Assembly (NCBI GenBank): GCA_021819085.1
Contig: JAKASJ010000006.1
Coordinates: forward strand, 1 to 64,000
Length of the DNA: 64,000 nt
From: Pseudomonadota bacterium
Lineage (GTDB): Bacteria > Pseudomonadota > Gammaproteobacteria > Acidiferrobacterales > UBA6901
Direction of reading: 5' to 3'
The number at the start of each line of letters is the position of its first letter. Position 1 is the first letter of the stretch. Shown here one piece after another: positions 46,569 through 63,458 of the stretch. The position numbers and the translations under genes were made by a program. The notes below the pieces were generated by a model. The model was given only the letters and a program-made list of their open reading frames with translations, was not told the DNA's origin and made no database searches.

Positions 46569-47624
46569 TTAGTCCGTCTTCGCCAATAAACCGGTGCTTT
46601 CCGGACGTGCCTCTGAACCGGCGGCCGGAACTTCGCGTACTGTATCGAATCCCCGACTCCTCCACCCGACCAGCCCATCGTTTACCAGCAGCGCCTGGGT
46701 AAAGCCCGCCGATCGCAGCAGTTCGACCGCCTTGCCGGACATGCGGTTGGTGCGGCATATGACGGCAAGCGGATGTCCGCGCTGCGGTTCGATCTCGGTC
46801 AGGCGATGCGCCAGTTCCGCAAGCGGGATGTTGAGCGAGCCGGCGATGTGCCCGAGCTCGCCGGTGTAGTCGGCGAGCGGACGTACGTCGAGTACCATCA
46901 AGCCTTCGTTGCCCTCAAGGCGCTTTTTGAGTTCATCGCTGGAAATGGTGTCCGTGCCGGGCTTGCGGCGCACACGCTTGACGAGCCCCGGCAGGAATGC
47001 GACTGCGGCAAGCAGGGCCAGCGCGAGCAGTCCCTTGCGCACCACACCTTCACCGCCCGCCGCCGCTTCGCGTCCCGCGTAGCCGAGATAGGTGTAGGCG
47101 AACGCGCCGGGCAGCATGAATACGAAGGAACCGACGATATAGGAAAGCAGCCGGATGCGGGTGAGGCCCAACGCATAGTTGAGCAGGTTAAACGGAAACA
47201 GCGGCACCAGCCGCACGAATGCGATGAATCGCCAGCCCTCCCTTTCAACGCCGTCGATGATCGATCCGGTCCAGCCGCCAGCCCGGCGATGCGCCCAGTC
47301 GGATGCGAGGTAGCGGGCAATCAGGAACGCAATCGTGGCGCCCGCGGTGGCGCCGGTGAGACTGTACAGGGTGCCCCACACTGGACCGAAAAGTGCGCCA
47401 CCGGCAAGCGTGATCACCGCACCGGGAAGGAACAGTACTGTGGCAGCAGCATAGGCCGCCATGAAAAGAAGCGGCCCGAGGGCACCGGCGCCGGCGATCT
47501 GCGCCTGCAGCGCGGCGGCGTTGAGCCAGTCCCGATTGAAAAACGCTGCGATGATCCCGACGACGAGCGCGGCAGATATCACAAGGCGCGGGATTGTCCG
47601 GCGTTTCACGAAAACCGGCTCCAT
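46569..47624 (-). CDS. TVP38/TMEM64 membrane protein fused to a rhodanese domain
   Basis: A 351-residue fusion. Residues 10-215 are a TVP38/TMEM64 (DedA-like, VTT) domain with about six helices and the conserved F-L-P-G-A-V-I-T-L-A-G-G-A-L-F-G-P-V-W-G and F-V-R-L-V-P-L-F-P-F-N-L-L-N-Y motifs. Residues 225-335 are a cytoplasmic rhodanese domain with active-site loop I-C290-R-T-N-R-M-S-G-K; Cys290 can carry a persulfide. The reaction is inferred as sulfur transfer or sensing coupled to a membrane protein. Its start overlaps the hydroxylase gene by 19 bases. Confidence 0.92.
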   Translation of the reverse strand: MEPVFVKRRTIPRLVISAALVVGIIAAFFNRDWLNAAALQAQIAGAGALGPLLFMAAYAAATVLFLPGAVITLAGGALFGPVWGTLYSLTGATAGATIAFLIARYLASDWAHRRAGGWTGSIIDGVEREGWRFIAFVRLVPLFPFNLLNYALGLTRIRLLSYIVGSFVFMLPGAFAYTYLGYAGREAAAGGEGVVRKGLLALALLAAVAFLPGLVKRVRRKPGTDTISSDELKKRLEGNEGLMVLDVRPLADYTGELGHIAGSLNIPLAELAHRLTEIEPQRGHPLAVICRTNRMSGKAVELLRSAGFTQALLVNDGLVGWRSRGFDTVREVPAAGSEARPESTGLLAKTD

Positions 47625-48457
47625 TCGCGACGGTTGATGGCATAGCCACGGACACGACCGAGAAAGGGCAGGATCAGCATGCCCGGCAAATCATTTACGA
47701 GTTTCGGCTTGCGGTAATCGCGGATGCCGAAGGTCATGCTGTCGTGGCCGGCGTCGGGCTGGTCCTTGTAGGTGCCAAACAGCCTGTCCCACAGGGACAG
47801 ATTAAAGCCAAAATTGCTGTTGGCCTCATGGTCTTCGATAGAATGGTGTACCCGATGCATGTCCGGGGTGACGATCAGCAGACGCAGCACCCGGTCCAGG
47901 CCAAGCGGCAGCCGCACATTGCCATGATTGAACATGGCGGTGGCGTTAAGTACCACTTCAAAAATCACCACGGCGGCCGCCGGAGCGCCGATAAGTGCAA
48001 TTACTGCAAACTTGATCAGCATCGAAAGCAGGATCTCGACCGGATGAAATCGCGCGCCCGTGGTGACGTCGAAATCAAGGTCGGCATGGTGCATGCGGTG
48101 CAGCCGCCACAGCGCCGGAACCGCATGGAACATGATGTGCTGGAGATAGATCGCAAAATCCAACAGAATCACCGAGGCAAGAACGGCGACCCACGGAGCG
48201 ACGGCAAGCATGTTGAACAATCCCCAACCGCGGCCGGCCGCCAGCAGCGCAAATCCGGTGGCGGCCACCGGCAGCAGCAGGCGCAGCAATGCACTGTTGA
48301 GGAACACGATGCCGAGGTTGCTGCCCCAGCGGCGCGGCCGGGGCAAGGAAAGCGCACGACGCGGCAAGGCAAGTTCCAGCAGGATCATGACCATGAGGAT
48401 CCCGAAAAACATGCCTAACCGCAGAACCATGGCATGCCGCACGACAGATTGAAGCAT
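47606..48457 (-). CDS. Sterol desaturase/fatty acid hydroxylase family protein
   Basis: A 283-residue membrane-bound di-iron protein; ATG 48457 follows a GGGGG ribosome site, while a GTG at 48514 would add 19 residues. Four to five helices carry the histidine clusters that bind two irons: H-I-M-F-H, L-W-R-L-H-R-M-H-H, F-N-H-G-N-V and M-H-R-V-H-H-S. It probably uses O2 to hydroxylate or desaturate a lipid. It is the first gene of the minus-strand cluster and diverges from the ArsR-rhodanese gene, sharing its regulatory region. Confidence 0.9.
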   Translation of the reverse strand: MLQSVVRHAMVLRLGMFFGILMVMILLELALPRRALSLPRPRRWGSNLGIVFLNSALLRLLLPVAATGFALLAAGRGWGLFNMLAVAPWVAVLASVILLDFAIYLQHIMFHAVPALWRLHRMHHADLDFDVTTGARFHPVEILLSMLIKFAVIALIGAPAAAVVIFEVVLNATAMFNHGNVRLPLGLDRVLRLLIVTPDMHRVHHSIEDHEANSNFGFNLSLWDRLFGTYKDQPDAGHDSMTFGIRDYRKPKLVNDLPGMLILPFLGRVRGYAINRREWSRFS

Positions 48458-48494
48458 GATGCCCCCTACCGACCGTAGAAAATACGCCGCCAAT

Positions 48495-48541
48495 TTGGAA
48501 AAACCAGCCGGCACTGCTATAATTCAATTAGTCAATTGAAT
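48495..48541 (+). promoter_or_regulatory. Sigma70 promoter overlaid by a perfect operator palindrome
   Basis: TTGGAA (48495-48500) and TATAAT (48518-48523) are separated by exactly 17 bases. ATTCAATT-AGTC-AATTGAAT (48522-48541) is a perfect 8-bp-arm palindrome covering the end of the -10 box and the expected start site. It ends 20 bases before the ArsR-rhodanese ATG. This is the layout of an autorepressed gene; the same operator can also control the divergent hydroxylase/TVP38 genes. Its ATTC...GAAT ends resemble sites of sulfide/persulfide-responsive ArsR regulators such as SqrR. Confidence 0.8.
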
Positions 48542-48561: not shown

Positions 48562-49236
48562 ATGTCAAGTCCTTCGCTCAAGCAGCAGCTCTATCGTGAA
48601 ATTGCACGCATCGGCAAAGCTGTCTGTCACGGCAATCGTCTGGAACTGCTCGAGTATCTTGCTCAGGGAGAGCGCACTGTCGATGCGCTGGCGGGGCTGA
48701 CGGACATTTCCGTGGCCAACGCTTCGCAGCATCTCCAGGTGCTGCGCCAAAGCGGCCTCGTGAAAGCCCACAAGGAAGGACAACACGTTTTCTACAGTAT
48801 TGCCGACGATGAGGTCGTCCGGCTGCTTGCAAGCATGCGCAAACTCGCGGAAACCCACCTGGCGGAGGTTGAGCGCCTGGTGCGCAGCTATTTGACCGTC
48901 AAGGACGAGCTGGAGCCGATTCCTCGGGCAGAGCTTCTCGACCGGGCGCGCCGCGGACTGGTAACAGTAATGGACGTTCGCCCACAGGAGGAGTACGCCT
49001 CGGGCCATGTGCCAGGAGCCATCAACCTGCCGATCAAGGATCTTGAGCACCGGTTGCGGGACCTGCCGCTGGATCAGGAGATCGTCGCCTACTGCCGGGG
49101 TCCACACTGCGTGCTGGCCTTCGAGGCGGTGGAACGGCTGCGCCGGGCGGGGTATCGGGCGCGACGGCTGCAGGATGGATTTCCCGAATGGCGCGAGGCA
49201 GGACTGCCGGTCGAAACCGCAGGTTCCCGCGACTGA
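48562..49236 (+). CDS. ArsR-family repressor with C-terminal rhodanese domain
   Basis: A 224-residue fusion. Residues 10-100 are a winged-helix ArsR domain (TVDALAGLTDISVANASQHL and L-R-Q-S-G-L-V with the wing K-E-G-Q-H-V-F-Y-S-I). Residues 118-220 are a rhodanese domain with active-site A-Y-C178-R-G-P-H-C183 and D-V-R-P-Q-E-E-Y-A-S-G-H. Cys22 lies in the ArsR part where sulfur-sensing relatives also place a cysteine. I infer a repressor that reads reactive sulfur, or delivers it to its own sensor cysteines, and controls itself and the divergent cluster through the palindrome in its promoter. Confidence 0.92.
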   Translation: MSSPSLKQQLYREIARIGKAVCHGNRLELLEYLAQGERTVDALAGLTDISVANASQHLQVLRQSGLVKAHKEGQHVFYSIADDEVVRLLASMRKLAETHLAEVERLVRSYLTVKDELEPIPRAELLDRARRGLVTVMDVRPQEEYASGHVPGAINLPIKDLEHRLRDLPLDQEIVAYCRGPHCVLAFEAVERLRRAGYRARRLQDGFPEWREAGLPVETAGSRD

Positions 49237-49941: not shown

Positions 49942-50489
49942 TTAATCGCTTCGTTGCCGCGGCAGTTATCGCCTGGCTCACCGCCGTACCGCTGGCCTAT
50001 GCCAATTCAGCTGCCGCTCCGGGGCGCTTTGCTCCGAATTTCTCCCTCAAGGATCTTAACGGCAAGGTACGGCATTTCTCGGATTATCGCGGCAAACTCG
50101 TTATCGTGAACTTTTGGGCGACATGGTGTCCGCCCTGCCGCATGGAAATTCCTTCCATGGAGCGTGCCTACGAAAAGCTCAAGAACAGAGGATTCGTGAT
50201 TCTCGGCATTGATGTCGGCGAGAATTGGAGCTCGGTTGCGCCCTTTGCGGAGCAGATGAAAATGAAGTACCCGGTTTTACTGGACCGCAATTCCACCGTC
50301 AGCAGGAAGTGGGGGATGATCGGATTGCCGACCAGTTACGTCATCGATCCGCACGGACGCGTGGTCGATGTCCTGGTCGGCGGAAGGAATTGGTTGAATC
50401 CGAAGCTGCAGGCACTCCTGAAGCAGCTGCTGCCGCGCGCTCCGGGGCCGGCGACTTCACTGAGGAGGCCGGCGACCGGTTCCGGTTGA
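49938..50489 (+). CDS. TlpA/ResA-like periplasmic thiol-disulfide protein
   Basis: A 183-residue thioredoxin-fold protein. TTG 49938 is preferred (AGGGAAA upstream, TTGA overlap, and it places the signal peptide at the N terminus); ATG 49902 would add 12 residues. After the leader come FAPNFSLKDLNGKVR, the redox site W-C64-P-P-C67 and a cis-Pro loop G-L-P-T-S-Y-V-I-D. Such proteins reduce or exchange thiols in the periplasm, often for heme attachment to c-type cytochromes, which fits the multiheme cytochrome nearby. Confidence 0.9.
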   Translation: MINRFVAAAVIAWLTAVPLAYANSAAAPGRFAPNFSLKDLNGKVRHFSDYRGKLVIVNFWATWCPPCRMEIPSMERAYEKLKNRGFVILGIDVGENWSSVAPFAEQMKMKYPVLLDRNSTVSRKWGMIGLPTSYVIDPHGRVVDVLVGGRNWLNPKLQALLKQLLPRAPGPATSLRRPATGSG

Positions 50490-51003
50490 GTTGCGGCGCT
50501 TTGGTCCGGCCAGACCCAGGGCGCGCACTGTGCTGATCATGTCTACGGATACCGGGACGTGATTGTGCTCATCCGCGTAACTGATTCCCGTCCCGAGCAG
50601 CAGATCCCCTTCGACGTCACCCGGTTTCCCGGGCGGACCCCTTTGCGCTTTTCACACGCTGTGCCTTGTCGGTGCCAAATCCGCGAATAAGGATCGGTGG
50701 TGCCCGGTGCGCCTGACCGGGAAACACGCCATGCCTGGATGAACTGGACGGGAATGAGCCACACCGCACGAGGTCTTGCCCTGGCGGGGCCCCGGTGTTT
50801 TCGCGCCCTCTTCGGGCCTGACCTTCAGGCCGCCACGCATTGCCGGCAGTGATCGTGAACGGGTTAGGCGCTGCTTCCCGTCTTCTGCGGCAGGTGCGAC
50901 CGAAGCGCGCTTGTCAGCTTCCGATTCACGGCAGACGGAACATCGATACCCGCCGCGCTGACCTTTGCTATAACTACCCATATACGGAACAATAATCAAA
51001 GAC
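50490..51003. other. 514-base intergenic region before the beta-oxidation operon
   Basis: No recognisable gene on either strand. The last 40 bases carry an extended -10 promoter. No clear FadR or PsrA operator could be identified by eye. Confidence 0.4.
50966..50974 (+). promoter_or_regulatory. Extended -10 promoter for the fusion gene
   Basis: TGCTATAAC is an extended -10 element (TGnTATAAT with one mismatch) about 30 bases before the ATG at 51004. There is no good -35 at 17 bases, which extended -10 promoters tolerate. The Shine-Dalgarno is weak (AAAGAC just before ATG). Confidence 0.45.
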
Positions 51004-54000
51004 ATGCCCTCCTCGCCCGAAGTCCTCATCGTAGGTGCTGGACCCGCTGGGATCGCGGCAGCGCTGCGGCTGGTTCGCGCGGGTGTTTCGGTGATGGTGC
51101 TCGAGGGTGCGGAGTATGCAGGCGCGGAGAACTGGTCCGGTTGCGTCTATCACGCCGAGGGTCTGCTGCGCGAGGATGTGCTGGGGCGAGAGCTGTGGCA
51201 GCAAGCCCCGAAGGAGCGGCGTATCGTCGCGCGCAGCCTGTATCTGCATGACGGCATCAATGCCGCAGGCTTCGAAGCCCGGGCCCATGCTGGCAATGAT
51301 TACGGCGAAGCATGGACCGTTCTGCGCCCCAAACTCGATCGCTGGCTGGCGAGCCGCGCCATTGATTTCGGCACCACCCTGATTACTGGCACCACGGCGA
51401 CAGGCCTGCGGTATCACGGCGACCGTGTGGTGGGTGTCGATACCGACCGCGGGCCAGTGGACGCTCCCGTGGTGTTCCTCGCCGAAGGCGACGCGGCCGG
51501 ATTGCTGGCGCGCGAAGGCTTCGAGCGGACGAAGCTCCCGCATTATGCCCAAGGCATCAAGGCGCTCTTCCACCTGCCGCCGCCGGAAATCGAGAAACGC
51601 TTTGAGCTGGGGCCGGGTGAAGGCATGGCGCAGGAGTGGCTGCTGCGAAACGGCCAGCTTGCCGGTCGCCCGGTGCGACTCAACATGACCGCCTTCCTTT
51701 ATACGAATCACGACACGCTTTCGCTGGGGCTGGTGCTCCCGCTTGACCGGCTGGCCCAGGCCGGCGTTGCCGATCATCCGCATCTGTTTGAGCGCGTTCG
51801 CAACATTCCGGTGATCGCATCCTACCTCGCGGGTGCGCAGCAGATCGCCTACGGCGCCAAGGTAATTCGTTCCGGGGGAATCGACGAGACTCCGGAGTGG
51901 GTGCGTGCCGGGCTGGCCGTTGGTGGCGGTGCGCTTGGCCTCGGGCAGGAGGTGCCCTACCCGAATTTCATCGCCCCGGCCATCACCAGTGCACTGACTT
52001 TCGCCGACGCCGTATTGCGCATACGCCAGAAGGGTTCCGATTACACGCACGCGGAACTGCAGCATGAGTACGCCGAAACATTGCGCAGCACCACCGATTT
52101 TTGCAATGCTGCGCTCATTCGGCGCTGGCCAGAGGCAATTCACGGTGGACCGGCCCTGTTCGACCACCTGCCGGCCATGCTGGGCCAGATGATCGATGCC
52201 GAGCGACTGCCGTCCGGCGCCGGCCGCGCCCAGTGGCGCCGGGCCCTGGGTGTGCAGCTTACCCATTTGCGCAGCGATGCGGCCCAGGCCTTGCATCTTG
52301 CGCGCGGGTTTGGCCCACGCTGGCGCGTGCTCCGGACGGCGCCACCGCCACTGCATGTGCGGTTCCTGGTCGCGCGCGCCGGCAGCGCGCCGGTACCGGT
52401 CGCAGTACCGGATGACCCTCTGCTGGCGCTGGCTGGCCAGGTGATCGGTCATTTCTACGGCCGGCGTTTGCCGGCGTTTGCCGATCGCGTGGCGTTGATC
52501 TGGCGCAGCATGGTGCGCCTGCCGCTGGCGCTGCCACGCATCGCCGGTCTGGGGCTGGGTGCGCTCACCGGGGGCGCGTCGCTGCTCGGCGACCTTGCAG
52601 CGTACAAGGCCTGCCGCCTGCCGTTGCGTGAACTGCTCCTGCGGCCTTACCATCGTTACGACGATTGCACGCGCAGCAGCCTTGACTGGAGCGGGGCGCA
52701 CCGAAGCGCCGCCTCCCCGACCACATGGATCGCTCCGCTCGTGCGTTACCGACCCGACCCACGGCATCTGACCGTGCCCCTGGGTCTCGGCGCAGCGGCG
52801 CAGCAGCTGCGCAATGTCTGTCCGGCGGAAGTCTACAGTCTCGTCGGTCAGCTGGGCGGAGTCGCTAGCCAGCACGAAAACTGCATCAAGTGTGAGTCCT
52901 GCCGTGTGACGGTGCCCGGGGTGGACTGGAATCGTAACAGCAATCACCGGTTTGCCTATCGGGTTCCGGGAAATACTCGAAGCGGCCCGGATTCTTCCGT
53001 GATTTCCGCGCTGGAGCCTGTCTCGGCCGAGCCGCTGCCCCTGAGCGTTGCCGAGCGCAGGATCTGGCAGCGCCTGTATCAGTCGCTGTGTGCCCGACCG
53101 GCGATGGTCGCCGGGGAATGGCCGCGTGCCTGGGAAAAACTGTTGAGGGCAATTCCTCACAACGAGCTGACGCGGCCAAAAGTCGCGCGCATGGACGCGT
53201 GGTTGCGGCGCCACGGCTACGGCTGGATGGAGACTGAAGTGCGCGCTCTGCTGGAGCAGGCGCGGGCGCTGCCGGTTGACGGGCAGGGCGTGCGCGACAA
53301 CGGCGCACACGCCCTGCAGCGCAGTCAGCGGGCGTGGGAGCGGCTGAAGACCGATTTTCCGTCGGAGCGGCTCAAATCGCTCGGACACGCGGCCTGGAAG
53401 CTTTCCGACCGGCGTGTCTTGCTTGATTGGATAGTCGCCGCGCGTACCCATCGTGTTGCCGCCGTCGAATGGCTGGCGGGCTGGTCGAGCGCGCTGGCGT
53501 GGATGGCCGCTGGACACTACCTGGCGGAGGCTTACGCCGGACACACGATCGCGGATGCCCTGGCCGGGCCATTGTGGCGCGAAGAAGATGGAAATTCTAA
53601 TTGGATGTCAGGGGTCGTCGAGCGCTTTGTCGACCTGCAGGGCGTCAGCAGATCTGCCGCAGGGATCGTTGCGCACGGTGCCGGCGCCGACGCCGCCCAG
53701 CCGGTGCGCAGGCGCGTCGTGGACGATGTCAGCGGCTTTTCCGCAACCGCCGAGCTTGCCGAAATGAGCGTTGCGCTGGCGCTCGGCCAGGCGACGGTGT
53801 TGCGCCGTCGTGCACTGGAATATGCCGCTACCCGGGTCCAGTTCCGCGGCGAACTGCGGGACAATGAGGGGCGCGAGAGCATCGCCAAGTTCGGCGTGGT
53901 CAAGCAGATGCTGGCGGGTGTGGAGTACGCGCATACGCTTCTCGGCCTGGCGCGCCGCTGGTGCCAGCGAGAGCCGGAGCGGGTATTGCTGCTTGTGCGC

Positions 54001-57000
54001 GAGTGCATGGGGCCGTGGATGGATGGTGTGCCCTGGCTCGCCGGACAGATTTTCGGAGGCATGGCATATTCTGAAGAGGACATCCTCGCGCCTCGCTACC
54101 GCGACGCGATCCTGTTCAGCCAATGGCCGGGATCGCGCGCGCTCGCGCGCGAAGATCCCGGCTTTGGCATGCGCCTGCTCGCACAGACGCTGCCGGAGTC
54201 GGACATAGACTATGTCGTGGCCGACAGCCTGCTGCAGTTCGCGACCGGGCGCCGTTGCCTGCGCACATTGCGCCCGCTGCAGGCCGAACCGCTGCGGCGC
54301 AAGCCTCTGCGCCCGCGTCTTCCGCTGACATGGGAAGCACACAGGAAGTTCACCTACCAAAGCGGCAGCTTTCTGAGCGGCAACCTGCTCGCGCCCGATA
54401 GGCTGCTCGTCCTTGAGCATTTCCGTCGGGACCCGTTGCTGCGCCGTACACGTGCCGACGTTTTGCGGCTGCTGCGCCGCGGCTTTCGCAGCCCGCGCAG
54501 GGGCGAACCCTACGGTCGTTACATCGATTTCCTGCACGGAATGCCGGAAGGCGACATTCAGCTGCTGCGTGAATTCAACGCCTTTGCGACGATTGTGCCC
54601 GCAAGTCTCGGGGGAAAGGGCTGGAGCAAGGCTCAGTACTCGGTGCTCACCAATCTGTGCATGGGGGAAAAGGATACCGCCACCGGCCTGCTGATCATGG
54701 CCAGCACCAGCATCGGCACCATGCCGGTGCTGCTCGGCCGCGACAAGGATCTGCCGCGGCTGCGCCACGAGATCGATGCGTGTCTGGCCGATGCGTCCGG
54801 ATGGCGGGAATTAAAGGAGGACCTGAACCGACTTATCGAAATGATCGAGCGTCCGGAACCGGGGCCCCTGCGGCGCAAGCTGGAGCGTCTCGGCGGACAG
54901 GTCCAGCGCATGTTTCTCTTTCCCGGTTCGACGCTCAAGTACCTGATCCGCGATTTTCTCGAGCTCATGCGTCAGACTGTGCAAGCGGCGAAAGCGCGTG
55001 ATCTCACGATCTTCGGGGATTGCCTGCGGCGATGCCGGGACAGTCTGCCGGCGGTGCGCGTCCGGCTCAGGGACGAACAGCAGGAAATCGATGCGCGCGA
55101 GCGCGCACATGAGCGCTTTCTGCAGTTCCTTGCCTGTGGGCAGATCAGTGCCTTTGCGCTCACGGAGCCGGCCGCCGGCTCCGACACCGGGGGCATTCAG
55201 GCGCGCGCGGTTCTTCGCGAGGTAGAGGCGCGTGCCGACGACCAGGGGCTGTACCGCTTCACTGTCGCCGGCACCGAAACACCGCGTTTGCTGCTGGATG
55301 CGCGGCGTCTGGTATTCGAATCGTGCCGGGCGTTTTTTCGCATGCCGGACAACAGCCTGGCCAGCCTCGATGACAGTGACTGGGATCTGGCGCGTAACAG
55401 CGGCCGCCGCCGGATTCGCGTCGGCGGGCACACCTATCCCTATGACGACATCGGCACTGTTGTCGTCACAAATGGCAAGGCCTTCTATCGTTACTGGGAG
55501 CTGTCAGGAAGCAAGATGTGGATCACCAACGGCTCGGTCGCGGATCGTTACTGTCTGTACGCCCAGACCGCGATCGGCGAAACCGGCTTTATGCTGGAAC
55601 GCCGCTCCGAGGGGTTGCGCATCGGTCCGAACGAAAACAAGCTCGGCCAGCGTGCTTCGCCGACCAACGAGCTGACGCTGGACCGCGTGCGAGTAAGCGC
55701 GGATCAGGTGATCGGCTTCACGGGTCATGGGCAGGTGAACGCACTGGAGACGCTGAGTGTTGGGCGTGGCGGTCTGGTCATGAGCTGTGCAACGCTCGCC
55801 GAGCGCGTGTTGCGGGAGTTTCTGCCGGTGTGGCAGAAGGATCCGGTCTTGCATGCCGCAGCCCAGGCGGAGTGCGACCGCCTGCAGACCCTGGCTGCGC
55901 GCCTGGTTGGCCTCATGGACCGGTCCGACCTTCAGCGCGGAGATTTTCGCATTGAGGCGGCGCTTTCCAAGTACCTCGCCTCCGAGGGTGCGCACCGTAT
56001 CCTGGGCTGGCTGGAGAGACTCTATGGCCCCGATGCTGCCGCACGCGAACGGATGCTGGAAAAATGGCGGCGCGACATACGTATCCTGAACATCTACGAA
56101 GGCACGAACGAGGTCCAGCGCTTTCTTGTGCTCAAGGACCTGCCGAACCTGCTGCGCGAGCAGGCAATGGAGGTTGCCGACAACGCGCCGCTCGATGCCG
56201 CACTCCAGGAGTTCCGCGAATTTGCAGCGGGTCGTGTCGCGGAGCTCGGTGCCGGGGTCTGGCAGAATCCGGATCTGCAGGCTCGCTGGTTCCCCGTTGT
56301 CGACTGGGTCGCCGAACTCTACAGCTGGTCGGCACTGCACGAGCGCACCCGTTTGCTGGAATCTCATGGCGACCCCGTGGACCGGGAGAACATTGGGCGT
56401 CTGCGTGCGAGCGAAGCCAGCATCGCACAGCACGTGCAGGATGTGGCCGGGATGGTGCGTTCGGATTTCGAGCAGGCCGAGCATGGCGATACGGGTCCCG
56501 GCGACGCCGCACTGGCCTTGGCACGCGCAGCGCTGGCCGTACCGGCGAGAGTGGATGACGGCCCCGTGGCAGTGGGCGCATTGGCGGGAGAATGGGCTGT
56601 CGTGCTGCGCAGCCGTTTCGAGCCCGGGGCCGGTGGCCTCGAGTGGGCCGGATGGAATCCGGCCGATCTCGCGGTGCTGGATCGCCTGCTGTCGTGGTCG
56701 GACCGGTTTCCGGCCCTGCATGTGAAAGTCGCCGCGCTCGCGCCGCGCGACACCGCCGACGCACTGCGCCGTCTGCAGGCGGCCGGCGCCGAGGTTCTGC
56801 ACGTTGCCCAGCCGGCCGGTGCCGCCGAAATGGCGGGCGCGGTTGCCGCCATCCTGCGCGTTTGGCCGCAGGTGCGGCGATGGGCATTCGGATGCGGCGC
56901 ATCCAGCCCCCGCGACCGCGGTTTTGCCGCGAACATGGGCCAGCTTCTTGGCGTCGATCTCGTGGAGGGCGCGACCGCCCTGGGCGACGTTGCGCATGGT

Positions 57001-58323
57001 TTGTGGGTGGAGGATGCCGCCTGGCGGCGGAGATTCATCACCGACCGGCGCCGTATCGCATTCGTGTGGGACCTGAAGCCGGGCGGCCGCGCCGGTCGTT
57101 ACGGAGTGCGGGATTGGCTCGCGGCACTGCGCACCGATCTGCAGTGCGCCGAGGCCGCTGCGTATCCGCTGCCGACGGCTGTGCGACTGCCGGCCCTGCC
57201 GCCGGCCGCCGATCTGCCGCAGCGCTTTGCGGACGTAGGCGAGCTTGCAGCCTGGCTCAGGGGCCGATTCAATGCGGGTGTCGTCCCCGATGATCCGGCG
57301 GCGACTCGGCCGGCACAGGTACCGTTGGCCGGCTACAATCTGTGGTTGACTCCGGCGGACGTGCTGGCCGGCGCCAGTCGCGAATCGGCGCTGCGTGCGC
57401 TGGTCGGGCTGGGCACCGGGTTCGGCGTACTCGCCTGGCTTCCTGCCGGACGGAGTCCCCCCCCGGTATCGCTGCTGCTGGGCCAGCCTGGATTCGCAGG
57501 TCTGTGGCAGCTGCCGCTGCATGGCGCGGTGCTGCATGCGGCACTGGCCGACCTGCTGGCAGAGCACATCGGTGTACCGCATCGCATAGTGTTGAGCGCG
57601 GAACATCGCGCGCTCGGGGCGGCGCTGGCGGCTCGTCTCGGAATGGCGCTGTTCGACGAGGTAATCGCGGTCACAGCCGACGCCGTGACCTGTTCTCGCG
57701 ATGGCTACGAGGCGGATTACCCGCTGCCGGACGCTGCACTGCTGATCATCGGCCGTTCCTGCAGCGCGCCACCACTGGCGGCTCCGGCATCCCTGCCGCT
57801 CCCGGTCACGCTGCTGCCCGCGGCGCACCTGCAAAGTTCGGCGCTGGCGCGTGCCCAGGCGCGCGTGGCTACGGGAGCAGGTCTGACGACAGCCAAGTTC
57901 ATCGTAGACGTAGGACTCGGCGTTGCAAATGAGTCCAATTACAAAAAACTCATTCCGCCTCTGTGCGCGGCGCTCGAACGTCTTAGCGGCGAGGCCGTGG
58001 AGCTGGGGGCGACGCGCAAGGTGACCCAAGAACTCAAGCTTCTGCCGGTCGACCGGCAGATCGGCCAGACCGGTGTTCCGGTGGCGCCGGCGTTGCTGCT
58101 GGCGCTGGGCATCTCTGGGGCGCCACAGCACATGGGTTGGATCGATCCGGGTGCCGTAGTGATCGCGATCAACCGCGATCCGGATGCTCCGATTTTCGGC
58201 TGGTCGCGCCAGAATCCGGGACCTCGTGTCATCGCCTGTATCGGCGACCTCGAGGAATGGGTACCTGCGCTGGTGCGATTTCTGGGTGCCGATGGCACTC
58301 TGCAGTCTGCCGGGGATGGTTGA
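51004..58323 (+). CDS. Giant fusion: ETF-quinone oxidoreductase / ACAD-like / acyl-CoA dehydrogenase / ETF-beta / ETF-alpha
   Basis: An uninterrupted 2439-residue protein. (1) 1-650: a FixC/ETF-QO-like flavoprotein with FAD motif G-A-G-P-A-G at 11-16 and G-A-E-N-W-S-G, then a FixX-like 4Fe-4S site with Cys606, 627, 630 and 633. (2) About 670-1065: an acyl-CoA-dehydrogenase-like region with R-V-Q-F (944-947) and I-F-G-G-M-A-Y (1016-1022) but no substrate or FAD signature. (3) About 1110-1840: a second dehydrogenase with FALTEPAAGSD (1384-1394), S-K-M-W-I-T-N-G (1503-1510) and I-Y-E-G-T-N-E, where E1699 is the likely catalytic base; two inserts (about 1250-1370 and 1400-1495) and a helical tail. 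(4) About 1850-2070: ETF-beta-like. (5) About 2100-2439: ETF-alpha, with V-D-R-Q-I-G-Q-T-G (2349-2357), LGISGAPQHM and VIAINRDPDAPIF binding FAD. It probably oxidises acyl-CoA and passes electrons via ETF flavin to quinone at the membrane. It heads a beta-oxidation operon. Confidence 0.93.
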   Translation: MPSSPEVLIVGAGPAGIAAALRLVRAGVSVMVLEGAEYAGAENWSGCVYHAEGLLREDVLGRELWQQAPKERRIVARSLYLHDGINAAGFEARAHAGNDYGEAWTVLRPKLDRWLASRAIDFGTTLITGTTATGLRYHGDRVVGVDTDRGPVDAPVVFLAEGDAAGLLAREGFERTKLPHYAQGIKALFHLPPPEIEKRFELGPGEGMAQEWLLRNGQLAGRPVRLNMTAFLYTNHDTLSLGLVLPLDRLAQAGVADHPHLFERVRNIPVIASYLAGAQQIAYGAKVIRSGGIDETPEWVRAGLAVGGGALGLGQEVPYPNFIAPAITSALTFADAVLRIRQKGSDYTHAELQHEYAETLRSTTDFCNAALIRRWPEAIHGGPALFDHLPAMLGQMIDAERLPSGAGRAQWRRALGVQLTHLRSDAAQALHLARGFGPRWRVLRTAPPPLHVRFLVARAGSAPVPVAVPDDPLLALAGQVIGHFYGRRLPAFADRVALIWRSMVRLPLALPRIAGLGLGALTGGASLLGDLAAYKACRLPLRELLLRPYHRYDDCTRSSLDWSGAHRSAASPTTWIAPLVRYRPDPRHLTVPLGLGAAAQQLRNVCPAEVYSLVGQLGGVASQHENCIKCESCRVTVPGVDWNRNSNHRFAYRVPGNTRSGPDSSVISALEPVSAEPLPLSVAERRIWQRLYQSLCARPAMVAGEWPRAWEKLLRAIPHNELTRPKVARMDAWLRRHGYGWMETEVRALLEQARALPVDGQGVRDNGAHALQRSQRAWERLKTDFPSERLKSLGHAAWKLSDRRVLLDWIVAARTHRVAAVEWLAGWSSALAWMAAGHYLAEAYAGHTIADALAGPLWREEDGNSNWMSGVVERFVDLQGVSRSAAGIVAHGAGADAAQPVRRRVVDDVSGFSATAELAEMSVALALGQATVLRRRALEYAATRVQFRGELRDNEGRESIAKFGVVKQMLAGVEYAHTLLGLARRWCQREPERVLLLVRECMGPWMDGVPWLAGQIFGGMAYSEEDILAPRYRDAILFSQWPGSRALAREDPGFGMRLLAQTLPESDIDYVVADSLLQFATGRRCLRTLRPLQAEPLRRKPLRPRLPLTWEAHRKFTYQSGSFLSGNLLAPDRLLVLEHFRRDPLLRRTRADVLRLLRRGFRSPRRGEPYGRYIDFLHGMPEGDIQLLREFNAFATIVPASLGGKGWSKAQYSVLTNLCMGEKDTATGLLIMASTSIGTMPVLLGRDKDLPRLRHEIDACLADASGWRELKEDLNRLIEMIERPEPGPLRRKLERLGGQVQRMFLFPGSTLKYLIRDFLELMRQTVQAAKARDLTIFGDCLRRCRDSLPAVRVRLRDEQQEIDARERAHERFLQFLACGQISAFALTEPAAGSDTGGIQARAVLREVEARADDQGLYRFTVAGTETPRLLLDARRLVFESCRAFFRMPDNSLASLDDSDWDLARNSGRRRIRVGGHTYPYDDIGTVVVTNGKAFYRYWELSGSKMWITNGSVADRYCLYAQTAIGETGFMLERRSEGLRIGPNENKLGQRASPTNELTLDRVRVSADQVIGFTGHGQVNALETLSVGRGGLVMSCATLAERVLREFLPVWQKDPVLHAAAQAECDRLQTLAARLVGLMDRSDLQRGDFRIEAALSKYLASEGAHRILGWLERLYGPDAAARERMLEKWRRDIRILNIYEGTNEVQRFLVLKDLPNLLREQAMEVADNAPLDAALQEFREFAAGRVAELGAGVWQNPDLQARWFPVVDWVAELYSWSALHERTRLLESHGDPVDRENIGRLRASEASIAQHVQDVAGMVRSDFEQAEHGDTGPGDAALALARAALAVPARVDDGPVAVGALAGEWAVVLRSRFEPGAGGLEWAGWNPADLAVLDRLLSWSDRFPALHVKVAALAPRDTADALRRLQAAGAEVLHVAQPAGAAEMAGAVAAILRVWPQVRRWAFGCGASSPRDRGFAANMGQLLGVDLVEGATALGDVAHGLWVEDAAWRRRFITDRRRIAFVWDLKPGGRAGRYGVRDWLAALRTDLQCAEAAAYPLPTAVRLPALPPAADLPQRFADVGELAAWLRGRFNAGVVPDDPAATRPAQVPLAGYNLWLTPADVLAGASRESALRALVGLGTGFGVLAWLPAGRSPPPVSLLLGQPGFAGLWQLPLHGAVLHAALADLLAEHIGVPHRIVLSAEHRALGAALAARLGMALFDEVIAVTADAVTCSRDGYEADYPLPDAALLIIGRSCSAPPLAAPASLPLPVTLLPAAHLQSSALARAQARVATGAGLTTAKFIVDVGLGVANESNYKKLIPPLCAALERLSGEAVELGATRKVTQELKLLPVDRQIGQTGVPVAPALLLALGISGAPQHMGWIDPGAVVIAINRDPDAPIFGWSRQNPGPRVIACIGDLEEWVPALVRFLGADGTLQSAGDG

Positions 58324-58378: not shown

Positions 58379-59677
58379 ATGTCGGATGCAAAGGTTTACG
58401 TAATCGATGGTTTGCGCACGCCGTTTCTGAAAACCCGCGGCCAGGCAAATGAGTTCAGCGCAGCCGATCTGGCAGTGGCCGCCGCCCGACCGGTGCTGGC
58501 GCGCGCGCCGTTTGCGCCGGAGCAGATCGACGAGATCATCGTCGGCTGCGTCATTCCGGCGCCGGATGAGGCCAATGTCGCACGCATTATCGGATTGCGC
58601 CTGGGCTGCGGCAAGACCGTCCCCGCCTTCACGGTCCAGCGCAACTGCGCATCCGGGCTGCAGGCGCTGGCGTGCGCGCGCGAGCGCATCGCGCAGGGGC
58701 GGGCGCATCTGGTTCTCGCCGGCGGCACCGAGGCGATGAGTCGCGCGCCGATCCAGTGGAATACCGCCATGGCGGGCTGGCTCGCTGGAGTCCTGCGTGC
58801 ACGTAACCCCGTTGCACGGGCGCGTGCCATCGGTGGCTTCCGGCTGTCACATCTGGCCCCGGTGTATACGTTGCTGCTGGGTCTGACCGACCCTCTGGTG
58901 AAACTCAATATGGGCCAAACCGCGGAGATCGTCGCACATCGATTCGGTATTACTCGCACGGAGCAGGATGCCTATGCGCTCGGCAGCCATCAGCGACTGG
59001 CGGCAGCCTATGGTGCCGGACAGATGCACGATGAGATCGTGCCGCTATTCGATTCCCGCGGCCGCGTTTATGAGGAGGACAATGGTCTGCGCAGGGATAC
59101 CGACATGGACAAGCTGGCCAAGCTCAGGCCGGTGTTCGACCGCAAGTACGGCTCGGTGACCTCGGGCAACAGCTCGCAAGTGACTGATGGCGCGGCTATG
59201 CTCATGCTGGCGAGCGAGACCGCCGTGCAACGCTACGGACTGACGGTGCTGGGCGAACTCTTGGGCGAAGAATGGGCGGGCGTCGATCCGAGCCAGATGG
59301 GTCTTGGACCAGTGCACGCCGTGGCGAGGCTGCTGGCCCGGTTCGCGCTTAGCATGGACGATATCCGAAAGATGGAACTCAACGAAGCGTTTGCCGCCCA
59401 GGTGCTCGCCTGCCAGGCAGCATGGGCAAGCCCCGAATACGCCCATGACGAACTCGGTCTTGGCACTCCAATCGGTCCGGTAGATCCGGCGCGCCTCAAC
59501 ACCGAAGGCGGCGCGGTCGCGATCGGCCATCCTGTCGGCGCTAGCGGTGCGCGGATCGTTCTGCACCTGCTGCGTTCGCTGCGGCGTCACGGGGGCGGCC
59601 TCGGCATTGCAACTCTTTGCATCGGCGGCGGCCAGGGTGGTGCGATGCTGGTGCGCGCGAAAGGGGAATCAGCATGA
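58379..59677 (+). CDS. Acetyl-CoA C-acyltransferase (thiolase, FadI/FadA-like)
   Basis: A 432-residue thiolase, which cleaves 3-ketoacyl-CoA with CoA in the last beta-oxidation step. The nucleophile is the Cys in Q-R-N-C-A-S-G-L-Q-A (about residue 90). G-H-P-V-G-A-S-G-A-R carries the catalytic His, and C-I-G-G-G-Q-G-G-A the second Cys. N-E-A-F-A-A is present. The length and an inserted loop around 130-165 fit the longer FadI-type proteins. It starts 55 bases after the giant fusion and overlaps the next gene by four bases. Confidence 0.93.
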   Translation: MSDAKVYVIDGLRTPFLKTRGQANEFSAADLAVAAARPVLARAPFAPEQIDEIIVGCVIPAPDEANVARIIGLRLGCGKTVPAFTVQRNCASGLQALACARERIAQGRAHLVLAGGTEAMSRAPIQWNTAMAGWLAGVLRARNPVARARAIGGFRLSHLAPVYTLLLGLTDPLVKLNMGQTAEIVAHRFGITRTEQDAYALGSHQRLAAAYGAGQMHDEIVPLFDSRGRVYEEDNGLRRDTDMDKLAKLRPVFDRKYGSVTSGNSSQVTDGAAMLMLASETAVQRYGLTVLGELLGEEWAGVDPSQMGLGPVHAVARLLARFALSMDDIRKMELNEAFAAQVLACQAAWASPEYAHDELGLGTPIGPVDPARLNTEGGAVAIGHPVGASGARIVLHLLRSLRRHGGGLGIATLCIGGGQGGAMLVRAKGESA

Positions 59678-61719
59678 ACATGGATATTGACGCGGCCAAT
59701 TGGCGAATCGAGGAAGCCGACGAAACCATCGTGCTGACGCTCGATGTGGTCGGACAGCGCGCCAACGCGCTGTCGTCCGTGGTGCTTGAAGAGTTCGACC
59801 GTATCCTGGGACAAATCGAAGTCCGTCCGCTCCATGGCCTGGTCATTCGTTCGGCAAAGGTCAACAGCTTCATCGTAGGCGCGGATGTCAACGAGTTCCA
59901 GAAGATCAGTGACTCTGTGCAGGCCACCGCCCTGGCGCGCGCGGGGCAGACCGTGTTCAATCGGCTTGCAGGCCTGCCATTTCCCAGCGTCGCGCTGATT
60001 CATGGCAATTGTCTGGGTGGCGGGCTTGAGCTGGCGCTCGCCTGCACCTACCGTGTCGCGCGCGAGGACGACGCAACGCGGCTGGGCCTGCCGGAAGTGC
60101 GGCTCGGAATCCATCCGGGTTTCGCCGGAAGCGTGCGGCTTCCGCCCCTGATCGGCGATCTGGCGGCGCTTGATCTCATCCTGACGGGCCGCGCGGTGAG
60201 TTCCCGCCAGGCGCTTGCGCTTGGTCTTGTTGACGAAATCGTGCCTGATCGCCACCTGATGCATGCGGCGCACGCGTTCATCGCGCGCCACCCGCGTCCA
60301 AGGCGTGCAGCCTGGTGGAAACGCACGCCGTCGTGGTCGATGGTGCGCAAGCCGGTCACGCGCCTGCTGCAGCGGCAGCTGCGGAAAAAGGCGAACCCCG
60401 ATCATTATCCGGCTCCGTACCGGGCGCTTGATCTGTGGCGCCGCAATGCTTCGCAGGACGAGGAAGCGCTTTCGTTGGGCGAGCTGATGGTCGGGCGTAC
60501 GAGCCGCAACCTGGTCAGCATGTTTCTGCTTGGCGAAGAGCTGAAGCGTCACGGGCGCCGCCACCCGCATGACGTCGCGCACCTGCACGTGATCGGTGCC
60601 GGTACCATGGGTGCGGACATAGCCATCTGGGCCGCGTTCAAGGGTTTTCGCGTGAGCCTGCAGGATCCGCAGATGGAGGCGCTCGCACGGGCGGTCAAGA
60701 AGGCCCACGGCTTCTACAAGAAGAAGCTTAAGAAACCGGTGGCCATTCAAGATGCGATGGACCGGTTGATGCCTGATACAAATGGCGATGGTCTGCATCG
60801 TGCCGATCTCGTTATCGAGGCCATAGTCGAGAAGGCGGATGCCAAGTGTGAACTGCTTCGATCGGTCGAGAGCATGGTGCGTCCGGACACGCTTCTGGCG
60901 ACCAACACTTCAAGTATTCCTTTGGAGATCCTGGGTGAGGCGCTCAGGGATCCGTCACGCCTGGTCGGACTGCATTTCTTCAATCCGGTGGCGCAGATGC
61001 AGCTCGTCGAGATCGTGCGAGGAAAGCAGACCAGCGAATCATCCCTGGAACGTGCCAGGGCATTCACCGTCGCAATCGAGCGTCTTCCTTTGGACGTCCG
61101 GAGCAGCCCGGGCTTTCTGGTCAATCGTGTGCTGATGCCGTATCTCATCGAGGCAATGACGCTGGCCCAGGAGGGGATTGCGATCGAGGAGATCGATCAG
61201 GCGGCGATGCACTTCGGCATGCCCATGGGCCCGGTGTTGTTGGCCGATACAGTGGGTCTGGATATCTGTCTGTCGGTGGCGGAGATGCTTTCCGGCCCAC
61301 TCGGTATTGCGGTGCCGGAACGCCTGCGCGAAGCTGTCGCGCGCGGGGATCTCGGAAAAAAGTCCGGACGGGGCTTCTATTCCTATGACAAATCAGGAAA
61401 ACCCCGCCGCCGGGCGGCCCACGGGCACAGCGATGTCCCCGTCACCGAGCGGCTGATCCTGCGCATGCTTAATGAAGCAGCGGCCTGTCTGCGCGAGGGG
61501 GTGGTCAGTGATCCCGATGCGGTGGATGTGGGGATGGTTTACGGGACCGGGTTTGCGCCCTATCTGGGTGGACCCATGCGCTATGCCGAGGCGCTGGGCG
61601 AGGTCGGCATCGCCAGCAGCCTGCAGCGGCTAGCGCAGGAATATGGGTCGCGATTCGCCCCCGATGAGGCATGGGGCAGAACCGACCTGTTCGCACGCCG
61701 TGCTGCATTGCGGGGATGA
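59674..61719 (+). CDS. Enoyl-CoA hydratase / 3-hydroxyacyl-CoA dehydrogenase (FadJ/FadB-like)
   Basis: A 681-residue bifunctional enzyme. The N-terminal crotonase domain (1-210) has the oxyanion hole and both glutamates: GNCLGGGLELALAC and L-P-E-V-R-L-G-I-H-P-G. The C-terminal dehydrogenase has NAD motif VIGAGTMGADIA, N-T-S-S-I, and catalytic His in GLHFFNPVAQM followed by V-E-I-V. R-S-S-P-G-F-L-V-N-R starts the C-terminal helical part. It performs steps 2 and 3 of beta-oxidation. It starts at ATG 59674, overlapping the thiolase stop; AAAGGGGAA lies upstream. Confidence 0.94.
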   Translation: MNMDIDAANWRIEEADETIVLTLDVVGQRANALSSVVLEEFDRILGQIEVRPLHGLVIRSAKVNSFIVGADVNEFQKISDSVQATALARAGQTVFNRLAGLPFPSVALIHGNCLGGGLELALACTYRVAREDDATRLGLPEVRLGIHPGFAGSVRLPPLIGDLAALDLILTGRAVSSRQALALGLVDEIVPDRHLMHAAHAFIARHPRPRRAAWWKRTPSWSMVRKPVTRLLQRQLRKKANPDHYPAPYRALDLWRRNASQDEEALSLGELMVGRTSRNLVSMFLLGEELKRHGRRHPHDVAHLHVIGAGTMGADIAIWAAFKGFRVSLQDPQMEALARAVKKAHGFYKKKLKKPVAIQDAMDRLMPDTNGDGLHRADLVIEAIVEKADAKCELLRSVESMVRPDTLLATNTSSIPLEILGEALRDPSRLVGLHFFNPVAQMQLVEIVRGKQTSESSLERARAFTVAIERLPLDVRSSPGFLVNRVLMPYLIEAMTLAQEGIAIEEIDQAAMHFGMPMGPVLLADTVGLDICLSVAEMLSGPLGIAVPERLREAVARGDLGKKSGRGFYSYDKSGKPRRRAAHGHSDVPVTERLILRMLNEAAACLREGVVSDPDAVDVGMVYGTGFAPYLGGPMRYAEALGEVGIASSLQRLAQEYGSRFAPDEAWGRTDLFARRAALRG

Positions 61720-63458
61720 CCATGCGTGTTCCGGTAACCGAGCACACAACGCTGCCGCAGCTGTTTTTGGCCCGTATCCACGATACACCGAACGGCCGGG
61801 CCTTTCGTCAGCATCACCCTGATCCTGGCATGTCCAAGGATGCGCGTCGCGGCCGATGGCAGGACATGAATTGGGCAGAGGCCGGACGCGAGGCAGGGCG
61901 CTGGCGAGCGGCGCTGCGCACCGAGGGCCTCAGGGCCGGAGACCGCGTGGCGCTGTGCATGCGCAACCGGATCGAATGGATCCTGTTCGATCAGGCGGCT
62001 CTCAGCCTCGGGCTGGTCGTTGTGCCGCTGTTCTATAACGACAGGGCCGAGAACATGGCGTGGTGCATGAATGACGCCGGCGTGAGCCTGCTTTTGCTCG
62101 AGGATGGTGTGTTGTGGAGAGATCTGCGCGCTCAGGTTCCGACGCTCATTCGTGTGGTCTGCATCAACGATGCGCCTGCGGGCGATGAGACCGCAGTCGC
62201 TGCATCAGCATGGCTTCCGGCGCGAGGTGAAAGCCTGGATGAAGGTCCTGCGCGTGCCACAGACCTGGCAACCCTGGTTTACACATCGGGCACGACGGGC
62301 CGGCCGAAAGGTGTGATGCTGAGCCACCGCAATATCGCGAGCAACGTCAGCGCCAGTCTCGATGCCGTGCCGATCGTGAATGCCGAAGATGTCTTTCTTT
62401 CGTTTCTGCCGCTTTCGCACATGTTCGAGCGTACTGTCGGCTACTACCTGTCCATGTGCATCGGCGCCAGTACCGTTTTCGCGCGCAGCATCACGGAACT
62501 TCCGGAGGATCTCCTGAGCCAGCGTCCAACGATGCTGGTGTGTGTCCCGCGAATCTTCGAACGCATCTATGCCCGAATGCAGGAGAGCCTGCCGCCCGGT
62601 TCCTTCCGCCGGCGCCTTTTCGACCTGGCAGTGAATGTCGGGTGGAGGCGCTTCGCCGGCCAGGCGCGGCCGGGCGATGCGCTCCTTTGGCCTCTGCTTG
62701 ATGTGCTTGTTGCGCGCAAGCTGCGCCGCCGGCTGGGGGGGCGCATGCGTCTGATCGTTTCCGGTGCCGCAGCGCTCGCGCCGCAGTTGTCGCGCACGTT
62801 TCTCGGGCTCGGACTTCCTTTGCTGCAGGGATATGGGCTCACCGAGTTTTCGCCCGTCGTGAGCTGCAACCGTCTTGAGGATAACGACCCCACTTCGGTC
62901 GGCCGGCCGGTCACCGGGGTTGAAATCAGGACCCTCGGCGATGGCGAGTTGCTGGTGCGCGGACCGGAAGTGATGCTCGGCTACTGGAACAATCCGGCCG
63001 CCACCGGTGCCGTGGTCGACGCCGAAGGTTGGTTGCACACCGGCGACATGGTGCGCATCGAGGGGGGGCGGATTTACGTTGTCGGACGCGCCAAGGAAAT
63101 CATCGTGCTCAGCAATGGGGAAAAGGTTCCGCCGGCGGATGCCGAGCAGGCGATTATGCTCGATCCAGTCTTCCAGCAGGTGATGGTGGTGGGTGAAGGC
63201 CGCCCGCGCCTCGGACTTCTGGTGGTGAGCGGACTTGCTGACGAGCGTGCCCTGTGCGAGCGCGCCAACGCCCAGCTGCGGAATTTCCCCGGGTACGCGC
63301 GGATATATCACATCGCGCGCATTGCCGAAGCGTGGACAGTGGAGAATGACCTGCTCACGCCGACGCTCAAGCTGCGCCGGAACAGGATCGAGGAGCGTTT
63401 CGCCAGAGAGATCGAAAACATGTACCGCAGCCGGGATCTGTGTCGCCAGACACGGTGA
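61716..63458 (+). CDS. Long-chain fatty acid--CoA ligase (FadD15/ACSL-like)
   Basis: A 580-residue ANL-superfamily enzyme that activates fatty acids with ATP and CoA. It has the AMP-binding P-loop LVYTSGTTGRPKGVMLSH, Q-G-Y-G-L-T-E-F-S-P, G-W-L-H-T-G-D-M and a C-terminal G-R-A-K-E-I-I-V-L-S-N-G-E-K-V. The last motif is typical of the eukaryote-like long-chain type (ACSL/FadD15), as is the E-N-D-L-L-T-P-T-L-K-L-R-R end carrying the catalytic lysine. ATG 61716 overlaps the upstream stop, placing substrate activation at the end of the beta-oxidation operon. No membrane anchor seen. Confidence 0.94.
   Translation: MTMRVPVTEHTTLPQLFLARIHDTPNGRAFRQHHPDPGMSKDARRGRWQDMNWAEAGREAGRWRAALRTEGLRAGDRVALCMRNRIEWILFDQAALSLGLVVVPLFYNDRAENMAWCMNDAGVSLLLLEDGVLWRDLRAQVPTLIRVVCINDAPAGDETAVAASAWLPARGESLDEGPARATDLATLVYTSGTTGRPKGVMLSHRNIASNVSASLDAVPIVNAEDVFLSFLPLSHMFERTVGYYLSMCIGASTVFARSITELPEDLLSQRPTMLVCVPRIFERIYARMQESLPPGSFRRRLFDLAVNVGWRRFAGQARPGDALLWPLLDVLVARKLRRRLGGRMRLIVSGAAALAPQLSRTFLGLGLPLLQGYGLTEFSPVVSCNRLEDNDPTSVGRPVTGVEIRTLGDGELLVRGPEVMLGYWNNPAATGAVVDAEGWLHTGDMVRIEGGRIYVVGRAKEIIVLSNGEKVPPADAEQAIMLDPVFQQVMVVGEGRPRLGLLVVSGLADERALCERANAQLRNFPGYARIYHIARIAEAWTVENDLLTPTLKLRRNRIEERFAREIENMYRSRDLCRQTR

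Follow-up and report, generated by a model that had tools for sequence, protein, structure and literature searches.

A 2439-residue protein predicted to pass electrons from acyl-CoA to quinone within one polypeptide chain

Background

Can electrons be moved from acyl-coenzyme A (acyl-CoA) to quinone by a single protein, when the three steps involved have long been treated as a relay of separate ones? The question is raised by one gene in a 64,000-nucleotide stretch of contig JAKASJ010000006.1 (the whole stretch is called the window below) from a bacterium of the order Acidiferrobacterales. The gene (51004..58323, + strand) starts with ATG and encodes 2439 amino acids (aa) without an internal stop, in agreement with an earlier note made from the letters alone, which had described a single intact 7.3-kb frame fusing acyl-CoA dehydrogenase (ACAD), both subunits of electron transfer flavoprotein (ETF) and ETF:quinone oxidoreductase (ETF-QO). 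A review (PMC5861303) describes the dehydrogenases as only loosely linked via EtfAB to the membrane quinone reductase.

Judged by its domains, this giant protein is a one-chain set of parts that are normally made separately: an ACAD, an ETF and a quinone-reductase-like module. We consider it quite likely to be a single-polypeptide acyl-CoA:quinone oxidoreductase, on account of its domain order, its invariant cofactor-binding and catalytic residues, its beta-oxidation neighbours and its being the genome's sole match to ETF-alpha and ACAD. With somewhat less assurance, we also favor a wider proposal, namely that the giants are an ancient class of self-contained enzymes in which a tether joins ETF on one side to a two-half ACAD that has a single active site and on the other to a quinone reductase of the FixCX type, present in at least eight named phyla, replacing FadE outright in Acidiferrobacterales-type bacteria and maybe serving as the only ETF hub in some Planctomycetota. 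Such a protein would provide a system of fixed stoichiometry for measuring, within a single molecule, how electrons are handed from acyl-CoA to quinone. It would also be a natural test of the need for ETF to diffuse, and an example of an ACAD with one active site built of two unlike halves. It could further explain how fatty acids are oxidised in bacteria that have neither FadE nor a free ETF or ETF-QO, whose genomes could be called unable to do so when annotation seeks separate genes.

No description of such a protein was found in searches of an open-access library, which does not cover most subscription papers or the preprints. Annotation pipelines have seen the domains, as single members carry database names such as 'FAD-binding protein', 'electron transfer flavoprotein-quinone oxidoreductase' or 'AidB-like acyl-CoA dehydrogenase/flavin-dependent dehydrogenase/...'. 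The components are of known kinds. What was not found described is their union in one chain and the way in which the ACAD halves complement each other.

Domain organisation

From the N- to the C-terminus, the segments are a FixC/FixX-like module, two ACAD segments (ACAD1 and ACAD2), ETF-beta and ETF-alpha, all encoded on the + strand. The curated Pfam cut-offs were passed by DAO and other flavin adenine dinucleotide (FAD) folds (from residue 6), Acyl-CoA_dh_M (residues 1497-1562), Acyl-CoA_dh_1 (1575-1711) and ETF_alpha (2294-2377). With the single sequence, ETF (PF01012, 21 bits, cut-off 26.7), Fer4_ETF_QO (11.7, cut-off 24) and the quinone-site domain ETFQO_UQ-bd (PF21162, 18.4, cut-off 27.7) stayed under them. 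The best NCBIfam match was FixC (expectation value (E) 2.5e-42), and all NCBIfam matches were under the respective cut-offs. Segment identities were firmed by comparing profiles of aligned homologues with the PDB.

Two long open reading frames run antisense to the gene (50974-53544, - strand, 856 aa, and 55504-58131, - strand, 875 aa); they are probably shadow frames of GC-rich DNA.

Complementary dehydrogenase halves

The profile of the whole ACAD region matched the very-long-chain ACAD best (E 1.7e-62). ACAD2 (54340..56163, residues 1113-1720) holds the middle and C-terminal ACAD domains according to Pfam, profile comparison and fold search, and carries the motifs that the earlier note had assigned to an ACAD: TEP at residues 1387-1389 (55162..55170), WITNG at 1506-1510 (55519..55533) and YEGT at 1698-1701 (56095..56106), the last with the predicted catalytic base E1699, conserved in 42/42 giants. 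ACAD1 (52996..54339, residues 665-1112) is recognisable as an ACAD from its own profile (8ca1, E 3.5e-7; 1buc, E 3.8e-7) and bears RVQF at 944-947 (53833..53844) and QIFGG at 1015-1019 (54046..54060). In ordinary ACADs, the FAD of each subunit is contacted by the corresponding motifs, R-x-[QT]-F and Q-x-x-G-G, of its neighbour. Both were found in the ACAD1 of all 42 giants, together with the catalytic EGT in none, and the ACAD2 segments had the reverse pattern, with EGT, TEP and W-I-T-N each in 42/42, R-x-[QT]-F in none and Q-x-x-G-G in two (L037 and L043), where it sits outside the motif position. TEP occurred in a single ACAD1 (L053).

Such pattern counts are too loose to serve as sole evidence and performed poorly in stand-alone ACADs, so the evidence is taken from aligned columns, in a control that aligned 20 ordinary ACADs with a subset of the 42 giants (13 sequences). 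The partner R and F columns were kept in 18/20 controls, 13/13 ACAD1 and 0/13 ACAD2 segments. The partner Q column held Q in 11/20, 13/13 and 1/13, respectively, and the second glycine of Q-x-x-G-G was G in 13/20, 13/13 and 0/13, the first being kept by all. At the catalytic column, E was present in every ACAD2 (13/13), in no ACAD1 (0/13) and in 9/20 controls; the base is placed elsewhere in other ACAD subfamilies. A symmetric-dimer FAD site, with the catalytic residues and the partner R-x-x-F in the same subunit, is therefore absent from the giants, the two sets being divided between ACAD2 and ACAD1.

As far as these residues can tell, the ACAD segments are complementary halves and not two enzymes. 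The simplest reading is that they likely form an internal pseudo-dimer folding one complete active site, because ACAD1 keeps the partner FAD residues without the catalytic glutamate and ACAD2 does the reverse. The segment that the earlier note called ACAD-like is better understood as the non-catalytic half of one such pseudo-dimer.

In sequence, the ACAD part is matched best by very-long-chain ACAD and ACAD9 (3b96, 8ca1, 8phf). These form symmetric homodimers in which each subunit has a complete site, whereas in the giant two unlike halves would complement each other. By description, not by kinship, the giant resembles the mycobacterial alpha2beta2 ACADs (ChsE4-ChsE5 etc.), where unlike ACAD subunits form one enzyme; such heterotetramers are named in PMC6678751. 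Only half of the sites in these enzymes bind FAD, and FadE34 is a fused pair; to our knowledge, no ETF or quinone module is attached to them.

Searching with a profile of the ACAD pair yielded 31 matches, comprising 12 giants, 18 ordinary ACADs of 556-851 aa and P0121 (1275 aa), which was rejected as a natural partial gene since it looks like a giant copy with frame breaks. No stand-alone ACAD1-like or partial-fusion protein was among them, the search having scored the 7,989 candidates that share most words, so that a distant relative could be missed.

FixCX-like module and tethered ETF

The N-terminal FAD-binding module (51004..52203, residues 1-400) is followed by a region (52204..52995, residues 401-664) with a linker, a hydrophobic stretch at about 510-530 and a FixX/ETF-QO-type [4Fe-4S] domain. 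In the profile comparison, this part matched FixC (7koe_C, E 5e-58), the ferredoxin-like chain 7koe_D (E 1.4e-6) and human ETF-QO (2gmh, E 2.5e-22), the latter aligned over three stretches that include the iron-sulfur part. The FixC/ETF-QO fold with a C-x20-C-x2-C-x2-C motif had been read correctly from the letters: C606, C627, C630 and C633 (52819..52902) form the single predicted [4Fe-4S] site, the last three being kept in 42/42 giants and C606 in 41/42, the remaining one having an X. They are the only invariant or near-invariant cysteines of the quinone module, which consequently has one four-cysteine set. A FAD fold with a single four-cysteine [4Fe-4S] domain is a trait of ETF-QO, and by score FixC together with FixX resembles the module more closely than canonical ETF-QO does. 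In many homologues the hydrophobic stretch is pronounced (means over 19 residues of up to 2.75), which suggests that the giant may be attached to the membrane through residues 510-530.

At the other end of the chain, a helical linker (56164..56655, residues 1721-1884), recognised by its secondary structure and with a ratio of nonsynonymous to synonymous substitution rates (dN/dS) of 0.14-0.19, joins ACAD2 to an ETF-beta-like domain (56656..57378, residues 1885-2125), which is followed by ETF-alpha domain I and its FAD domain (57379..58320, residues 2126-2439). ETFs have two separate soluble subunits, and here both lie in one frame. The two ETF assignments of the earlier note were confirmed. 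ETF-alpha has its Pfam match PF00766 at 60 bits (cut-off 27), IGQTG at residues 2353-2357, a profile match to 7koe_B (E 4e-34), and R2338, Q2352, Q2355, S2371 and H2376 kept in 41/42 giants (a gap in the 42nd). ETF-beta, under its cut-off as a single sequence, was recovered by profile (6fah_B, E 3e-20), and its alignment to known ETF-beta chains extends across the fold. The ETF parts also match those of the dehydrogenase-ETF complexes Bcd-EtfAB, CarCDE and Ldh-EtfAB (5ol2, 6fah, 7qh2), which differ in being non-covalent, bifurcating or confurcating (PMC5861303) and without a quinone module.

Genomic context and the place of FadE

ETF_alpha, Acyl-CoA_dh_M and Acyl-CoA_dh_1 are each matched once in the host genome (3.42 Mb, 99.98% complete), always in the giant, and the genome's one Fer4_ETF_QO match, under the cut-off, is in the giant as well. 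The FadE domain ACDH_C (PF09317) had no match in this genome. Fifty-five bases past the giant begins a thiolase gene of the FadA/FadI type (58379..59677, +; Pfam and NCBIfam), followed by a FadJ-like enoyl-CoA hydratase/3-hydroxyacyl-CoA dehydrogenase (59617..61719, +; TTG start as listed, the true start probably being later) and an AMP-binding acyl-CoA ligase of the FadD type (61671..63458, +) that overlaps the end of the FadJ-like gene. By this gene order, the giant lies in a beta-oxidation operon; a sigma-70 promoter was looked for in 50300-51100 and not found. Thiolase and FadJ flank the giant in 18/66 loci: every Proteobacteria locus extending beyond the 3' end (15 loci) and three of the 48 others.

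Among 60 genomes of relatives, the host included, 20 had the giant, 33 FadE (PF09317), none both and seven neither (Fisher's p 2e-10, with shared descent ignored); in the 37 good genomes the numbers were 16, 17 and four for the giant, FadE and neither. The giant was broken over contigs or at a contig end in three of the 20 (G027, G047, G053), and FadE was called from a partial PF09317 match in G030 and G052. Within the family of the window, the giant was present in five genomes of its genus and FadE in two of other genera. The giant thus appears to take the place of FadE in this order. The E. coli-type FadE, as the split implies, would occupy the same position in fatty acid oxidation in neighbouring genera with a different architecture, ACDH_C being absent from 20/20 giant genomes.

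Of the 20 giant genomes of the order, eight had no ETF-alpha besides the giant, and G047, with a giant fragment only, had none at all. Nine FadE-bearing genomes of the order were also without any ETF-alpha match (G005-G008, G010, G012, G013, G017, G018), so FadE would pass its electrons there without a recognisable ETF. One genome (G054; 3.8 Mb, 6% contamination) had 39 Acyl-CoA_dh_M matches beside FadE.

Homologues and selection

Whole-protein comparison, with 7,980 candidates scored, gave 162 homologues; 118 of the 120 listed were at least 2,266 aa long, the NCBI names among close ones were Acidiferrobacterales and Gammaproteobacteria, and one full-length copy in another genome was 93% identical. 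A two-peptide-pattern scan (one genome per species, from the best 80 of 545 confirmed stretches) gave 66 loci. The same domain order was found in 40 of them, with the FixC-like, iron-sulfur, ACAD1, ACAD2 and ETF-alpha segments all in one open frame, ETF-beta being left out of this test as too divergent; in many of the other loci the frame runs to the end of the locus. The 40 loci span eight named phyla (14 Proteobacteria, 9 Planctomycetota, 5 Nitrospirota, 3 Acidobacteriota, 2 Gemmatimonadota, 2 Verrucomicrobiota, 1 Lentisphaerota and 1 Armatimonadota), and three carried no phylum label. The fusion is probably old, since a tree of 42 giants (978 columns) keeps the phyla largely together, Planctomycetota needing two changes. 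Comparing the window giant with three relatives, dN/dS was 0.10-0.32 in all seven segments (e.g., ACAD1 0.20-0.30, ETF-beta 0.27-0.32), and with purifying selection in every segment no part looks like decaying sequence.

Proposed electron path and alternative explanations

In the path that we propose, ACAD2 would dehydrogenate acyl-CoA at its FAD, E1699 acting as the base, and ACAD1 would pack on ACAD2, supplying the R, F and Q-x-x-G-G residues normally given by a neighbouring subunit. Electrons would then go singly to the FAD of ETF-alpha, and from there to the [4Fe-4S]/FAD module and to quinone at the membrane; the FAD domain of known ETFs swings between partners. The enoyl-CoA product would be taken up by the FadJ-like and thiolase enzymes encoded next door. 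The redox partners and their order are those of the mitochondrial and aerobic ACAD, EtfAB and ETF-QO relay (2gmh, 1efv, 1t9g), there separate proteins and here one chain.

Several observations weigh against this interpretation. The quinone-binding part is the weakest, with both PF21162 and PF05187 under their cut-offs in the single sequence, and the hydrophobic stretch is modest in the window giant (19-residue mean 1.34; range 0.42-2.75 across the 42 giants). In the ACAD pair, the partner Q column is less telling, given its presence in just 11/20 controls, the first glycine is kept by ACAD2 in 13/13, and a broader R-x-x-F pattern matches ACAD2 once (L076). All three motifs were found together in only 1/18 stand-alone ACADs and both partner motifs in 6/20 ordinary ones. 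The predicted packing of ACAD1 on ACAD2 comes from a single AlphaFold model, and the fold of ACAD1 was barely tested by the fold search with the ACAD-pair model, because the matches listed span model residues 467-1054 only. Regarding the genomes, thiolase and FadJ flanks outside Proteobacteria were seen in 3/48 loci only, many flanks being cut short, the split between giant and FadE is clustered in few families (f1 5/7, f4 15/18), and a second ETF-alpha was present in 11/20 giant genomes of the order.

The alternative that survives best, and which we regard as possible though not favored, is that the tethered ETF and quinone module form a hub also taking electrons from separate ACADs. In 26 giant genomes of other phyla, the giant was the only ETF-alpha in 12, and in five of these also the only Acyl-CoA_dh_M match; the remaining seven (G063, G071, G072, G073, G075, G077, G078) had two to five further Acyl-CoA_dh_M matches (E up to 0.001) and no free ETF-alpha. 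In those seven, either the giant serves the other ACADs as their ETF or those ACADs use another acceptor. A hub cannot hold in the window's genome, where the giant is the sole ACAD match. The covalent wire from acyl-CoA to quinone proposed in the earlier note is supported by the sequence, in that the key residues are all present (with the quinone site weakly recognised), the unit is conserved in eight named phyla, and the genomic context fits. In these 7/26 genomes the giant may also serve other ACADs and so not be a strictly private wire.

A fused, bifurcating FixABCX-type enzyme, in which NADH would be oxidised at an ETF-beta FAD and its two electrons split between the acyl/enoyl-CoA site and either ferredoxin or quinone, is improbable. 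It draws on the N-terminal and ETF-alpha parts, whose closest relatives of known structure belong to Fix/EtfABCX (7koe), and on the ETF-beta profile, which also matches bifurcating ETF-beta chains (4kpu_B) best. However, in a profile of 30 sequences, the stretch opposite the D-x-x-x-N-Q-T-G of human ETF-beta, which we take to be nucleotide-binding, is without those residues. Lacking the usual AMP/FAD loop, ETF-beta would have no recognisable bifurcating FAD site, and the giant is probably not electron-bifurcating. This and the single conserved four-cysteine set lead us to predict three FAD and one [4Fe-4S] as cofactors. PMC5861303 gives 3 FAD and 2 [4Fe-4S] for the FixCX-FixBA complex and places the bifurcating flavin in ETF-beta/FixA; Fix/EtfABCX also differs from the giant in consisting of four separate proteins without an ACAD.

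Equally hard to sustain is a post-translational cut of the giant into ordinary subunits, the fusion then serving assembly only. Nothing was seen in its favor. Purifying selection acts on the linker at 1721-1884 (dN/dS 0.14-0.19), and close reading of individual loci turned up no gene that is naturally split. The candidates were rejected: L071/L073, seemingly split between ACAD1 and ACAD2, has both ends entering N stretches, L044 is interrupted by a frame break, and N stretches occur in L047, L048 and L082. Still less credible is a reverse reaction in vivo, with quinol or another donor reducing enoyl-CoA to acyl-CoA; ACAD2 does also match acryloyl-CoA and caffeyl-CoA reductases, but the adjoining ligase, FadJ-like and thiolase genes and the mutual exclusion with FadE point to degradation. 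An assembly or annotation artefact can be dismissed almost entirely: the source records of the loci are metagenome-assembled genomes or bins, yet the full-length homologues, with the same fusion in 40/66 loci and the 93% identical copy elsewhere, rule out a frameshift or misassembly.

Other genes in the window

Upstream of the giant, two genes fuse a further domain to rhodanese: an ArsR-type helix-turn-helix in one (48562-49236, +) and a VTT membrane domain in the other (46569-47624, -). Near the latter are a pyridine-nucleotide-disulphide oxidoreductase (42902-44317) and a CXXCH-type cytochrome (44314-45651). The window also encodes a radical SAM protein with DUF3641 (41901-42863, -) and a fatty acid hydroxylase superfamily protein (47606-48514, -).
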